This document shows positions 21,041-30,935 of a stretch of 38,363 bases of DNA, one piece after another. Numbering within the stretch: position 1 is the stretch's first letter; every line of letters begins with the position of its first letter. The notes beneath the pieces are model-generated. The model ran no database searches and had not been told where the DNA came from. It saw nothing but the letters and a program-made list of their open reading frames with translations. The DNA comes from a virus, in the IMG/VR virus record IMGVR_UViG_3300046001_006545, positions 1-38,363 of that record; one strand, written 5' to 3'. A program made the position numbers and the translations under genes.

Positions 21041-21252
21041 CGTTCCAACCATTGGAAGATGCTGATCCCGACGACGCCAAGGCCAGCGAAGAAGGCGAGG
21101 ATCGCGAACCGCACCGTAGCGCGCACCAGCACCGAATAGATGGCGGGCCATTGGCCATCGGCACGGACGGCGAGAAGACCCGTCAAAGACCCGCCGACCA
21201 TGGCGGTCATCATCACGGCGAGGGCGAGGAAATAGACATCATGGACTTTCAT
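21037..21252 (-). CDS. Small two-span membrane protein
   Basis: A 71-residue protein with two hydrophobic segments (about residues 7-29 and 44-66) joined by a short charged loop with VRADGQW. It is coupled to both neighbours by ATGA. Its position in an early operon and small size resemble phage membrane proteins that act on host physiology or superinfection, but no function can be assigned. Confidence 0.65.
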   Translation of the reverse strand: MKVHDVYFLALAVMMTAMVGGSLTGLLAVRADGQWPAIYSVLVRATVRFAILAFFAGLGVVGISIFQWLER

Positions 21253-21611
21253 CGCTTCACCACCACCCCAGACGCCTCATGCGCCCGGTCCAGGACCACG
21301 CCCATGCGGGCCTGAGTCGCAGCCAGGGAGGCGCGCACAGTGAACAGAATCCACGCCGACACCGTCATGCCAGCCTCACGAGCGGCGCTCTCAAATGCCG
21401 CCTTGTCGTCGATGCTGCACCGGGTCCACACCTGCACGGGTTTCGCCGTTGCAACGGGCGAGGGCCGACCGTAGCGCCTTGGAAGGCCCAACACGCAACG
21501 GTGCAGCTTCACGGTCTGCGGCGTGCATCCGAGGATCGCGGCCATCTCGACGTCGTTGGCGTTCGGGTGCTCGCGGAAAAGCGCGGGCCAGTCTGTGGCG
21601 ATGCGGGTCAT
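21249..21611 (-). CDS. Helix-turn-helix plus ribbon-helix-helix-like DNA-binding protein
   Basis: A 120-residue protein. Residues 17-45 (NANDVEMAAILGCTPQTVK) look like a helix-turn-helix. Residues 58-95 (VQVWTRCSIDDKAAFESAA, then SAWILFTVRASL) read as a strand and two helices, as in ribbon-helix-helix proteins. A combined HTH and RHH suggests a transcription regulator of the early genes. ATG 21611 is in an ATGA overlap. Confidence 0.6.
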   Translation of the reverse strand: MTRIATDWPALFREHPNANDVEMAAILGCTPQTVKLHRCVLGLPRRYGRPSPVATAKPVQVWTRCSIDDKAAFESAAREAGMTVSAWILFTVRASLAATQARMGVVLDRAHEASGVVVKR

Positions 21612-21966: not shown

Positions 21967-22087
21967 CGGGCACCCCCTCGAAGAAGAACGCGACGCTGCG
22001 GCAAAACTCCTCGTCGCTGATCTCATCGCGCTCGTACTCGCGGGCGTCCATTTCGAGCATGTCGGGCGTGTTGTGGTCGTCGTGCAT
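21950..22087 (-). CDS. Small acidic protein (45 residues)
   Basis: From ATG 22087, preceded by the ribosome site AGGGAGACACC that recurs before several early genes. The product is acidic with a helical C terminus. It follows the hairpin at 22107-22125, so its expression may be attenuated relative to the first gene of the operon. Function unknown. Confidence 0.65.
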   Translation of the reverse strand: MHDDHNTPDMLEMDAREYERDEISDEEFCRSVAFFFEGVPDENQR

Positions 22088-22106
22088 GGTGTCTCCCTTA
22101 GCCGAA

Positions 22107-22125
22107 AGCCCCGGCTGTCGGGGCT
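22107..22125 (-). promoter_or_regulatory. Hairpin between first and second genes of the - strand operon
   Basis: On the - strand AGCCCCG, loop ACAGC, CGGGGCT is followed by TTTCGG. The short T run makes a weak or partial terminator, or an RNA-processing or stabilising hairpin. The same arms and nearly the same loop occur at 31309-31328 in the + strand early operon, also after the first gene. Confidence 0.7.
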
Positions 22126-22151
22126 CGCGGGCTTGGTTGTGGGGTGGGAGG

Positions 22152-22331
22152 TCAGCGGGCATCCAGCGCAGCGTGCCAAGCCTTGCGGGCTTCGTTGCAG
22201 GCGGCTTCGGCAGCCTTCGCAGCACGGTAGGCGGCGTCGTCGAAGATGTTGTTGAGGCTGATGCTGTGCGCGGTACCGGAGGCGCTCCAAGCGAGGGCGT
22301 AAGCAGCGAAGGTCGTTTCGACGTTGTTCAT
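22152..22331 (-). CDS. First gene of the - strand early operon (59 residues)
   Basis: From ATG 22331, preceded by AGGGAGACAGA and a strong promoter at 22368-22396. The product (starts MNNVETTFAAYALAWS) is Ala-rich and probably helical, with a C-terminal basic helix. It is likely made early and in quantity given the promoter. No family was recognised. Longer in-frame starts would run through the promoter and are rejected. Confidence 0.7.
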   Translation of the reverse strand: MNNVETTFAAYALAWSASGTAHSISLNNIFDDAAYRAAKAAEAACNEARKAWHAALDAR

Positions 22332-22367
22332 TCTGTCTCCCTGTTGGCCTTGCGTGGCCACATCCAC

Positions 22368-22396
22368 ACTGTACGCACTGCCTGTCAGTGCGTCAA
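22368..22396 (-). promoter_or_regulatory. Strong sigma-70-type promoter with an internal palindrome
   Basis: On the - strand: TTGACG (22396-22391), 17-base spacer, TACAGT (22373-22368). The spacer holds an inverted repeat, CGCACTG (22374-22380) and CAGTGCG (22386-22392), which overlaps the -35 box and is well placed to be an operator. It drives 22152-22331 and the genes down to 17824. Confidence 0.8.
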
Positions 22397-24697: not shown

Positions 24698-24894
24698 GGG
24701 CACCCCTTGCCGATGGCATTTCGGGCAATGCGGACCATCGCCTGCGTCGTCGTGTTGGGCGATTGTGTCGATCCTGCAGTGAGGATCGCAGACCCGAAGG
24801 CGACATGCGCCAGAAGGTCAGCGATGCGCTCCAGCGCCTCGACTTGGCGGCGGGCGATGATCTCGGCTTCGGTCTCTTTGCTCGGTTCGGTCAT
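24694..24894 (-). CDS. Small helical protein
   Basis: A 66-residue protein from ATG 24894, with ribosome site AGGGAGACA just upstream. The first half is a charged helix (ETEAEIIARRQVEALERIAD); the second half is Thr/Ala-rich. Coupled to both neighbours by ATGA. Function unknown. Confidence 0.6.
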   Translation of the reverse strand: MTEPSKETEAEIIARRQVEALERIADLLAHVAFGSAILTAGSTQSPNTTTQAMVRIARNAIGKGCP

Positions 24895-26330: not shown

Positions 26331-26483
26331 ATGGCGAAGATGAAAGAGATCCGATTTGACCTTGTGCCCGAGAAGCACAAGAGCTTGGCGAAGATGGCCA
26401 AGGCTGAAGGCAGTTCCATCGCCGTGCTGGTGCGGCGTGCGATCAACATGATGCTCGAGAAGAGCGAGAAGGACGGTGTCTGA
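26331..26483 (+). CDS. Ribbon-helix-helix transcription regulator
   Basis: A 50-residue protein (starts MAKMKEIRFDLVPEKH). Residues 5-10 form a strand, 13-25 a helix, EGSS a turn, and 28-44 a second helix containing IAVLVRRAINMML. This is the Arc/CopG-like ribbon-helix-helix fold, and its length fits a minimal member. Placed as the first gene between divergent promoters, it probably binds there and represses itself and the ERF operon. The stop overlaps the SSB start (TGATG). Confidence 0.8.
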   Translation: MAKMKEIRFDLVPEKHKSLAKMAKAEGSSIAVLVRRAINMMLEKSEKDGV

Positions 26484-27894: not shown

Positions 27895-30263
27895 TGGGCT
27901 GGACCAAGCAATCAATCGAAGACGTCAAACGCGCCGCCAACATCGACGAGGTGGTGGGGGACGATGCCAAACTGACGCGAGAGGGCGACGACATGGTGGG
28001 GTGCTGCACCCTGCCAGGGCACAAGGATGACACCCCGTCGCTTCGGGTGAGCCCGATCAAGGGCCTTTGGCGATGCCACGGCTGCAACTCTGGCGGGTCC
28101 GCTGTCGACTGGCTGATGATGCGGCACAGCATGAAGTTCCCCGACGCCATGCGGGCGCTGTCAGGCAGGACTGGCATCCCCCTCGTCGAGGAAACCAAGG
28201 CCGGGAAGTCCTCGAGGCGCCTCGTTGCCTCCTACCAGTACCAGACGGCTGCAGGTGAAACCCTGTACGTCATCGAGAGGTGGGAGCCAGGGAAGCAGGG
28301 CCGCAGCAAGGACATTCTGCAGCGTGGCGCTGACGGGTCCTATGGCAAGCACCCACAGCAGGTGCTCTACCGCCTGCCCGAGGTGCTGACGGCGGTCGCG
28401 ACACAGCTGCCCGTCTACATCTGCGAGGGGGAGAAGGCCACGGAAGCCCTCGTGAAGTTGGGGGTTTGTGCCACGACTCACGCGGGCGGGGCGAGCGCCG
28501 TCAAGACGTGGCTCGTTGGTGGCTTTGTGGAGCCGTTGCGCGGGGCCGACGTGGTCCTTGTGCCAGACCACGACGACCCAGGCAGGAAGTTGATGGCCCG
28601 CGTTTCCGCCATCGTCAGCACGGTGGCGCGGTCGGTGACGACGGTTCACCTTCCCGTGACCGGCGACGGTGACGACGCGGTGGAGTGGATCGCAGCGGGG
28701 GGTACCAAGCGGGACCTCGAGGGCATGGCCGAAGATTCGGCGGGCTTGGCGCAAGCGGAGAACGCGTCATGGAAGTCGATGCTTCGGCATGGGCGGGACA
28801 GCCTGCGGGGCTCACCCGGGAATCTCGAGCTTGTGCTTGAGAATGACCCGATGGTCCGGGGCTTGTTTGCCTATGACGAGTTCGCTTCTCGCGTCGTCAT
28901 CACGAGACAGCCGCCGTGGTCAGAGCGCAACGCCACCTATCCACGCGCCCTCGTCGATGCCGACATCGTCCGGCTGGCCGTCTACATGGAGAAGGCCGTG
29001 GACGCCGACTTCGCGACCACCACGATCGGTGCCGTCGTCTCGTCAGTCGCCGACCGTGCCGCGTTCAACCCCCTGACGGACTGGCTCGGGCGCCTGTCGT
29101 GGGACGGGACGCCGCGCCTGTCCAAGTGGCTGGCCACCTACGCCGGGGCCGACGACAATGCCTACACGCACGCTGTGGCGCGGGCTTGGGCCATCTCCAC
29201 GGTGGCTCGAGCACTCCGGCCAGGGTGCCAAGTCGACACCACCCTTGTGCTCGAGGGTACCCAAGGTAAGGGAAAGTCCAGCCTGTTGCGCGCCCTCGTC
29301 GGCTCGGAATGGTTCATGGACCACCTGCCCGACTTCTCCAGCAAGGACGCCGCGATCCTTGTCGCCAAGGCTTGGGTCCATGAGCTCTCGGAGTTGGCCA
29401 CTCTCTCGAGGTCCGAGGTCGAGAAGATCAAGCAGTTCCTTTCGCAGCGCCATGACGTCTACCGGGCGCCCTATGCCGCCAACACGATCGACGTGCCCCG
29501 CAAGTGTGTGTTTGCTGCCACGACAAACCGGAGCGACTACCTGCGGGACACCACGGGCAACCGGCGATTCTGGCCCGTGAAGACCACGGCGATCGATGTT
29601 GCTGCCATCGCCCGAGACCGTGACCAGATCTGGGCAGAGGCTGTTGTGGCCTTCAGGGCAGGTGAGGGCTGGCACATCAGCGATCCCGAAGTGCTGGCGC
29701 TGGCGCAGGAAGAGCAGAGCAACCGGGTGGAGGTCGACCCCTGGCTTGACGCGGTCGCCCGTTTCGTGGAAGCTGTGGACCAGACCACCACAGCGGACTG
29801 CCTCAAGCAGATCGGCGTGGAAGTGTCCAAGCGCACACCGCGTGATGGTGAACGGGTGTGCGGGATTCTTCGCTGCCTCGGATGGACCGAGGAACGCCAG
29901 CGCACCACGACAGGCCGAGTACGGGTCTGGAAACCAAAACCAAGTGGACCAGAGGGTGGACCAGAGCTGGACCAAAGGCCTTTGGTCCACACTTTGCCGC
30001 ATTCCAACGCCGTTTCAGAGGCTGGACCAAAGGGACCAGAGAAAAACCTCAAAACACCTGTGGAAGTGGTTGGGGCTCTGCACACCACCACGGTGGGACC
30101 ACACGTTACCACTCCTGTAGATCTTTCATTTTCCTTTGGTCCCTTTGGTCCATTGGTCCCAGGGCGTCCTGATGCGGCGAAAAGTGGACCAGAGGTGGAC
30201 CAAAGGGCTCCGGTCCTTTGGTCCACTGCGGACGATGGTCCAGACCCATGGAGTGGGGAATGA
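27894..30263 (+). CDS. Bifunctional primase-helicase (CHC2 zinc finger, TOPRIM, VirE-like ATPase)
   Basis: A 789-residue replication protein; ATG 27894 is preferred, with GTG 27891 in frame. The zinc-binding primase domain has CTLPGHKDD near residues 37-47 and CHGCNSGG near 61-68. The TOPRIM-like part has ICEGEKATEAL (about 176) and VPDHDDPGR (about 222). The C-terminal ATPase has Walker A EGTQGKGKSS (about 453-462), then KAWVHELSEL and AATTNRSDYLRD, typical of the VirE/virulence-associated E family. The last 110 residues are low-complexity, Pro/Gly-rich and probably disordered; their DNA contains the iteron cluster. It probably primes and unwinds at the phage origin. Confidence 0.9.
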   Translation: MGWTKQSIEDVKRAANIDEVVGDDAKLTREGDDMVGCCTLPGHKDDTPSLRVSPIKGLWRCHGCNSGGSAVDWLMMRHSMKFPDAMRALSGRTGIPLVEETKAGKSSRRLVASYQYQTAAGETLYVIERWEPGKQGRSKDILQRGADGSYGKHPQQVLYRLPEVLTAVATQLPVYICEGEKATEALVKLGVCATTHAGGASAVKTWLVGGFVEPLRGADVVLVPDHDDPGRKLMARVSAIVSTVARSVTTVHLPVTGDGDDAVEWIAAGGTKRDLEGMAEDSAGLAQAENASWKSMLRHGRDSLRGSPGNLELVLENDPMVRGLFAYDEFASRVVITRQPPWSERNATYPRALVDADIVRLAVYMEKAVDADFATTTIGAVVSSVADRAAFNPLTDWLGRLSWDGTPRLSKWLATYAGADDNAYTHAVARAWAISTVARALRPGCQVDTTLVLEGTQGKGKSSLLRALVGSEWFMDHLPDFSSKDAAILVAKAWVHELSELATLSRSEVEKIKQFLSQRHDVYRAPYAANTIDVPRKCVFAATTNRSDYLRDTTGNRRFWPVKTTAIDVAAIARDRDQIWAEAVVAFRAGEGWHISDPEVLALAQEEQSNRVEVDPWLDAVARFVEAVDQTTTADCLKQIGVEVSKRTPRDGERVCGILRCLGWTEERQRTTTGRVRVWKPKPSGPEGGPELDQRPLVHTLPHSNAVSEAGPKGPEKNLKTPVEVVGALHTTTVGPHVTTPVDLSFSFGPFGPLVPGRPDAAKSGPEVDQRAPVLWSTADDGPDPWSGE
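29945..30242. repeat. Iteron cluster, putative replication origin
   Basis: At least 14 copies of GGACCA or its complement TGGTCC occur in about 300 bp, in both orientations: starting near 29945, 29957, 29968, 29983, 30023, 30033, 30096, 30137, 30146, 30154, 30185, 30196, 30219 and 30236. Many extend to (G/A)TGGACCA(A/G)AGG. Positions 29968-29989 form a perfect 22-bp palindrome with half TGGACCAAAGG. The stretches between (for example 30040-30056 and 30121-30136) are A/T-rich compared with the genome. Repeats plus A/T-rich DNA inside a replication gene resemble the lambda ori within O. Confidence 0.75.
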
Positions 30264-30790
30264 GCGCACCTGAACAGAAGGCGCTGGACTGGCTGGCTGC
30301 CAATGTCCGCAGGCCAGCGGGTCCGCTCAAGGTGATCGCCTGTGGTGGGCGGGACTACGCCGATGGGGCCAGGGTCGACCGCATTCTGTCCACCATCCAC
30401 GCGGCGCTGCAGGTGGATGACCTGATCCACGGTGGCGCCAATGGTGCTGACGCCCTCGCCGCCTCTTGGGCTGTCCGGGCTGGTGTCCGGGTTCGGGAGT
30501 ATCAGGCGGATTGGCAAGCTCTCGGGAGGGCTGCAGGCCCCTCGAGGAACGCGGCCATGTTGATGGCTTGCCCTGCCCTCGTTGTTGCGTTCCCAGGTGG
30601 GCGAGGGACAGCCGACATGGTGGCGCAAGCCGGGAAAGCGGGTGTGCCCGTGTGGACGGTCAAGGCCCGGCTCGAGGTGTGGACGCCAAAGGATGCCGCA
30701 CCGGAAGAAGAAGAGCGACGCCAACGACTGGCCAGGGCGATGGTGGCTGGCACTGCGGCGGCTGCAAAGCCTAAGCGGTGGTCACGGTAG
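30260..30790 (+). CDS. SLOG-family (DUF2493-like) protein
   Basis: A 176-residue protein from ATG 30260 (ATGA overlap with the primase stop). It has VIACGGRDYADGARVDRIL at residues 25-43, LIHGGANGADALAASWA at about 55-71, PSRNAAMLMACP and VVAFPGGRGTADMVAQA, the Rossmann-like nucleotide-binding signature of the SLOG/DUF2493 (YspA) family. These proteins are thought to bind nucleotides or nucleotide-derived signals. In phages they commonly sit near replication genes, but the role is unproven. The last 30 residues are basic and disordered. Confidence 0.82.
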   Translation: MSAPEQKALDWLAANVRRPAGPLKVIACGGRDYADGARVDRILSTIHAALQVDDLIHGGANGADALAASWAVRAGVRVREYQADWQALGRAAGPSRNAAMLMACPALVVAFPGGRGTADMVAQAGKAGVPVWTVKARLEVWTPKDAAPEEEERRQRLARAMVAGTAAAAKPKRWSR

Positions 30791-30826: not shown

Positions 30827-30935
30827 GCGGCTGGCTATCCAGGGGCAACTCTGGAGATTGACACCGCACCCGCTCCTGACGTCTCCCCACTGCAGGAACG
30901 GTAACGGCACCATTTGCGTTGGTGCCGTTTCTTTT
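30827..30935 (+). ncRNA. Putative phage small RNA
   Basis: The segment runs from the promoter at 30793-30820 to the intrinsic terminator ending at 30935, giving about 109 nt. It can form TCCAG (30838-30842)/CTGGA (30851-30855) and TCCTG (30874-30878)/CAGGA (30893-30897) stems before the terminator hairpin. No open frame with a usable ribosome site lies inside it. The transcription start and function are inferred; it could also be a leader left over from attenuated readthrough. Confidence 0.45.
30903..30935 (+). terminator. Intrinsic terminator of the replication operon / small RNA
   Basis: AACGGCACC (30903-30911) pairs perfectly with GGTGCCGTT (30921-30929) around a 9-base loop, followed by TCTTTT. 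It is one of the two strongest terminators in the window. Confidence 0.9.

Follow-up and report, generated by a model that had tools for sequence, protein, structure and literature searches.

A moron is a promoter–gene–terminator insertion in a phage genome; it normally brings its own control, and its expression, for example in a lysogen, does not depend on the phage programme. In T4-type phages, cassettes termed PeSL (promoter early stem-loop; Arbiol 2010, Comeau 2014) are associated with the exchange of small genes (summarised in PMC4503421). Archaeal viruses contain conserved early regulatory sequences that precede anti-defence genes, some of which have been shown to act in anti-defence (PMC11065993). 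SAS/ESAS elements have been described in Cluster K mycobacteriophages and in Microbacterium Cluster EF phages (PMC3203893, PMC7302621); SAS is a 13-bp sequence (GGGATAGGAGCCC) that occurs 11–19 times in a genome and is preceded by 17-bp repeats (PMC3203893).

The locus described here belongs to an uncultivated virus whose record comprises 38,363 bases with a GC content of 65%, and this whole stretch is hereafter called the window. It contains two leaders, i.e. leader 1 (− strand, 22396–22087) and leader 2 (+ strand, 31027–31340). We consider it likely that both are copies of one promoter-led cassette with an exchangeable small gene of probable anti-host role and a hairpin behind it. The cassette shares principles with PeSLs, morons, and the regulatory sequences of archaeal viruses, and has all the defining features of none of them.

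As in PeSLs, a conserved promoter and stem-loop form a unit tied to small-gene exchange between related phages; such exchange is seen here between two related contigs (L060 and G006) and between the window or the related contig G004 and G006. Both leaders have a promoter and hairpins, but the firm stem-loop lies past the first gene and a small upstream stem is seen in only some leaders, so that they agree at best in part with the PeSL combination of early promoter and stem-loop. In contrast to PeSLs, the conserved unit continues here into a hairpin in the 5′UTR and a ribosome site of fixed sequence. Nor are these phages T4-like, and instead of a high copy density in variable regions, only two to three copies occur per genome or contig (two in the window).

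The cassette also resembles a moron in that a small gene has its own promoter and stem-loop terminator, a description that the first leader 2 unit of another related contig, L084, fits fully; in the window, the terminator is present with a weak U-tract. Unlike morons, different genes are found behind one leader in a fixed slot, and the genes further downstream are apparently reliant on read-through. Absence of a moron from the same place in close relatives would leave an empty site; the relatives examined here have another gene in the slot. In common with the archaeal viruses, one regulatory sequence stands before diverse small, poorly conserved genes, and inverted repeats are presumed repressor sites, but the promoters in those viruses are archaeal and the role of the first genes is assigned here by analogy only. 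Both the cassette and SAS/ESAS have an over-conserved sequence at the ribosome-site position, an upstream element, and genes of many families; the sequence here is, in contrast, AGGGAGACA, with four copies in the window, and a transcribed stem-loop and a terminator stem are present.

Genome context and composition of the two leaders

Stretches 37680–38363 and 126–473 match one and the same ORF in relatives; because one gene is thus split over both ends of the record, the genome is probably circular or circularly permuted. No matches were obtained by megablast of 18 kb of the window against 50,697 phage records, or by Rfam and tRNA scans. TerL shows about 31% identity to those of Salmonella and Escherichia phages of about 42 kb, and a VapE-type primase is present. 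The replication and recombination genes (ERF, RusA, SSB, the VapE-type primase, and a methylase) are located at 22.4–30.8 kb, and the terminase and virion genes start near 33 kb.

Several other features were noted in and around this region. A 50-aa ribbon-helix-helix (Arc/CopG-like) protein encoded just 5′ of the SSB gene (26331–26483, + strand) is a candidate regulator of phage promoters. A 120-aa protein of the leader 1 operon (21249–21611, − strand), which has weak similarity to NikA and seems to contain a helix-turn-helix, is possibly an autoregulator. The end of the primase gene (29956–30216) contains 33-nt near repeats and a 24-nt inverted repeat of the TGGACCAAAGG type, and a YspA-like SLOG family protein (PF10686) is encoded between this gene and leader 2 (30218–30790, + strand). 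SLOG-type proteins sense nucleotides in some defence systems.

Table 1. Features assigned to leaders 1 and 2 and to their operons in the window
Feature	Coordinates	Strand	Sequence or remark
Leader 1 promoter	22368–22396	−	TTGACG (at 22396)-17-TACAGT (ends 22368); GTGCGTA spans the −10
Leader 1 spacer palindrome, putative operator	22373–22393	−	ACGCACTG-ACAGG-CAGTGCGT, between −35 and −10
Leader 1 5′UTR stem-loop	22345–22360	−	TGGCC-ACGCAA-GGCCA, directly 5′ of the ribosome site
Leader 1 ribosome site, first gene	22334–22342	−	AGGGAGACA
Leader 1 first gene, P0001	22152–22331	−	59 aa
Leader 1 terminator-like hairpin	22107–22125	−	AGCCCCG-ACAGC-CGGGGCT, then TTCGGC (weak U-tract)
Leader 1 ribosome site, second gene	22090–22098	−	AGGGAGACA
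Leader 1 second gene, P0003	21950–22087	−	45 aa; kept in both G004 and G006
Terminator upstream of leader 2	30903–30929	+	AACGGCACCATTTGCGTTGGTGCCGTTTCTTTT
Leader 2 promoter	31027–31054	+	TTGACT (at 31027)-16-TAGAAT (ends 31054); GTGCGTA spans the −10; no palindrome
Leader 2 5′UTR stem-loop	31062–31075	+	CGGC-ACGCAA-GCCG
Leader 2 ribosome site, first gene	31078–31086	+	AGGGAGACA
Leader 2 first gene, P0002	31092–31295	+	67 aa
Leader 2 terminator-like hairpin	31309–31328	+	AGCCCCGG-ACAG-CCGGGGCT, then CTTTGG (weak U-tract)
Leader 2 second gene	31340–31546	+	68 aa; no family match
Strong terminator-like hairpin, operon end before terminase genes	32816–32868	+	−36 kcal/mol, z −6.6

All elements named in the original prediction, i.e. 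a TTGAC promoter with GTGCGTA at the −10, AGGGAGACA, a short first gene, and an AGCCCCG/CGGGGCT hairpin, are present in both leaders (Table 1). The first genes, described there as encoding dissimilar proteins of about 60 residues, indeed encode unrelated proteins of 59 and 67 aa, and the hairpin loops, described as nearly identical, are ACAGC and ACAG in leaders 1 and 2, respectively. The 5′UTR stem-loop of both leaders and the promoter palindrome of leader 1 are additions to that list. When leader 1 was compared with every 75-nt piece of the window on both strands, its best non-self match was leader 2, with a score of 37 against 29 for the next unrelated piece; leader 1 was likewise the best non-self match of leader 2. 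AGGGAGACA occurs four times in the window (0.27 copies expected), a number reached in none of 100 shuffles, and the hairpin pattern has exactly two matches (none for the reversed control). The further AGGGAGACA copy that had been placed at 24894 does exist, but its position is 24908–24900 and it is an ordinary ribosome site with neither promoter nor hairpin.

The loop of the 5′UTR stem-loop (ACGCAA) is common to both leaders, whereas the stems are GGCC/GGCC in leader 1 and CGGC/GCCG in leader 2; the stem beside the ribosome site is altered on both sides while the loop is kept. Because stems are common in this GC-rich DNA (14 of 40 background ribosome-like sites in the window also have one at most 25 nt upstream), the argument lies in the kept loop and the two-sided change rather than in the presence of a stem, which in any single sequence is weak evidence. 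In two cassettes of L084, the stem is formed only with an internal loop. A small stem upstream of the promoters, for which general occurrence was tested, was found in only some leaders and is not a consistent element.

The palindrome ACGCACTG-N5-CAGTGCGT fills the −35/−10 spacer of leader 1, and none of 300 shuffles yielded an equally good one. In the relatives, its arms are conserved and its centre is free, and the same register is seen in five promoters of the group; at G006:572, the arms co-vary to ACGGAC/GTCCGT. Leader 1 probably binds a dimeric repressor at this palindrome. Since the palindrome is absent from the leader 2 promoter, a common operator for both leaders was rejected and one shared repressor is not supported, and the common control proposed in the original prediction is retained in a weak sense, i.e. 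the same promoter class, 5′UTR design, and ribosome site. A third promoter (L010/G006 572 and L060 1891) contains the palindrome ACGGAC-N9-GTCCGT, and a start codon lies a few bases past its expected transcription start; the small gene located there is possibly leaderless.

The leader 2 operon is bounded by a terminator upstream and a very stable hairpin downstream. Because the latter parts it from the terminase genes, leader 2 appears to head a discrete short operon of small genes, for which the role of an early accessory operon is plausible from its layout. A late promoter serving the downstream terminase genes is less likely, as this strong terminator-like hairpin lies in between.

Recurrence of the leader and replacement of the first gene

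Ten cassettes were gathered by scans of viral contigs, all from related uncultivated phages represented by metagenome contigs. A leader profile built from all ten matched these same ten with E-values from 2.5e-9 to 9e-16 (next unrelated, 0.016), and among the sequences searched its matches were confined to these phages. Other scan matches (L062, L065, and L067–L219 except L084) were inspected and judged to be due to chance, and a loose-pattern scan of genome contigs gave chance matches among the matches listed. In the contigs containing both leaders (the window, G004, and L084), leader 1 is directed leftward and leader 2 rightward, and the two are 8.5–9.6 kb apart.

Four different first genes were found behind leader 1, encoding proteins of 59 aa (the window and G004), 58 aa (G006), 59 aa (L060), and 93 aa (L084). 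Five were found behind leader 2, with products of 67 aa (the window and L003), 90 aa (G004 and L064), and 103 aa (L061 and L063), and of 57 and 70 aa in two tandem units of L084. Similarity between first genes was limited to the leader 1 pair of the window and G004, which encode an identical protein; one other pair gave a borderline score and is not convincingly related. The window and G004 copies differ at three DNA positions, all synonymous, which argues that this gene is coding. In every cassette, the ORF starts a few bases past a strong ribosome site.

L060 and G006 show a single mismatch in 3036 nt and then diverge just past the stop codon of the upstream gene. In the divergent part, only the arms of the promoter palindrome, the −10 region, the 5′UTR hairpin, and AGGGAGACA are kept, and unrelated first genes follow the leader. 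The promoter must have been part of the exchanged piece, since its flanks and the centre of the palindrome differ as well; an assembly join at a word common to both is therefore the less likely origin of this arrangement. L060 is represented by one metagenome contig, which ends 185 nt into the new gene. When the window and G004 were compared with G006 at leader 1, the blocks on the 5′ and 3′ sides proved constant and the gene enclosed by them variable. In L084, two full units consisting of promoter, 5′UTR, gene, and terminator are arranged in tandem, the first closed by CCCCGCTCCGGCGGGGTTTTTTC.

The suggestion that the cassette had been copied is thus supported in three respects: related contigs have the leader at the same two sites, facing outward, the whole promoter–gene–terminator unit occurs twice in tandem in one of them, and the first gene behind a constant leader has been replaced. 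In more distant relatives (G001–G003, L050–L055; TerL identity, 66–70%), the order of promoter, stem-loop, and GGGAG-type site is kept with other sequences, and the leaders form back-to-back divergent pairs. The promoters of these pairs can be 9 bp apart (e.g. G001 30459/30468), and their spacers share a CAGATC-like box.

The hairpin downstream of the first gene

Conservation of the hairpin arms in relatives, whose absence would have counted against the original prediction, was found for leader 1: four phages that differ in their first gene have CCCCGACAGCCGGGGCTTTCGGC in identical form. For leader 2, the hairpin sequences differ and the position is kept in four of five cases, no hairpin being found behind the first gene of L061. 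Since unrelated phages also contain this stem, the hairpin by itself says little about copying. On the − strand at 22080–22160, CTCCC occurs right past the first-gene stop and is complementary to the GGGAG in the second gene's ribosome site, with which it could pair.

In the unrelated phages, this stem is nearly always followed by a T-run. The 8 nt past the stem include three or four T in the window and its relatives, compared with five to seven in nearly all other occurrences, so that the GC stem of an intrinsic terminator is combined with a poor U-tract. Given this combination, the hairpin is probably an intrinsic terminator that is leaky in those cassettes whose downstream genes rely on it for transcription. 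In the first leader 2 unit of L084, the hairpin ends in six T and the next genes have their own promoter.

It is also conceivable that the hairpin acts as a switch of translation or transcription between the first and second genes. In leader 1, the CUCCC past the stop would pair with the GGGAG of the second gene, and terminating ribosomes would open this pairing. Pairing of this kind around the hairpin is predicted in the window, G004, and G006 and in a shifted form in L084, and the invariance of CCCCGACAGCCGGGGCTTTCGGC behind different first genes would fit such a function. However, C-rich stretches past stop codons are common in these sequences, leader 2 shows no equal pairing, and the six T in L084 resemble a plain terminator. 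We therefore regard a switch as unlikely and retain the leaky terminator as the preferred reading.

Origin and possible role of the cassette

In the preferred reading of a copied cassette, a promoter of the housekeeping-sigma type would start a short structured 5′UTR with a strong, fixed ribosome site. Most transcripts would end at the GC hairpin past the first gene and a minority would read on into the next genes, and by this mostly terminating hairpin the first protein would become the most abundant product. The leader may also serve as homologous sequence for the exchange or duplication of whole promoter–gene units among phages, which would account for the fast turnover of the first genes.

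The resemblance of the two leaders could instead have arisen with no copying at all, the preference of the host machinery for certain sequences making strong promoters, ribosome sites, and terminators alike, while frequent change of small first genes would be normal for any phage. The occurrence of the hairpin stem in unrelated phages is in line with this explanation, as are G001–G003, in which the same general order (TTGAC, −10, stem-loop, and GGGAG site) is built from different sequences, and identical leader sequences could partly reflect host promoter preference. Yet the 5′UTR block CACGCAAG and its spacing to AGGGAGACA, which have no role in a generic promoter, are common to both leaders, L084 contains two full tandem units, and the profile matches were restricted to these phages; convergence of this type is improbable as the whole explanation. 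Production of a short regulatory RNA with its end at the hairpin, the first ORFs being decoys, would suit the distance of only about 260–290 nt from promoter to terminator stem and the lack of protein relatives of these ORFs, but is very improbable in view of the purely synonymous differences in leader 1, the ORF placed just past a strong ribosome site in every cassette, and the lack of Rfam family matches.

Returning to the copied cassette, the first genes probably encode host-takeover or anti-defence proteins, judging by analogy with other viruses in which a single conserved early promoter precedes small genes of many kinds. Comparisons of the first proteins with phages and with the Pfam, PHROGs, and PADLOC families tested gave nothing usable. 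With no match among these families, the anti-host role is drawn from gene position and turnover only. P0001 is predicted to form a two-helix hairpin (pLDDT 91), and its model gave no significant structural matches; the prediction for P0002 is of low confidence (pLDDT 69).

A bolder and distinctly tentative version holds that these loci are dedicated gene slots, in which the constant leader and the 3′ hairpin would be recombination handles that swap small anti-host genes like cartridges. If so, the leader sequence would allow the direct retrieval of many as yet unrecognised anti-defence proteins. Much of what phages use for anti-defence and host takeover is encoded by small genes with strong promoters; such genes have no sequence in common, which makes them difficult to detect, and a constant leader provides a search handle for them in uncultivated phages. 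The leader described here flags genes with rapid turnover and a possible effect on the host, and the cassette offers a clean case for how phages swap single genes without disturbing their expression.
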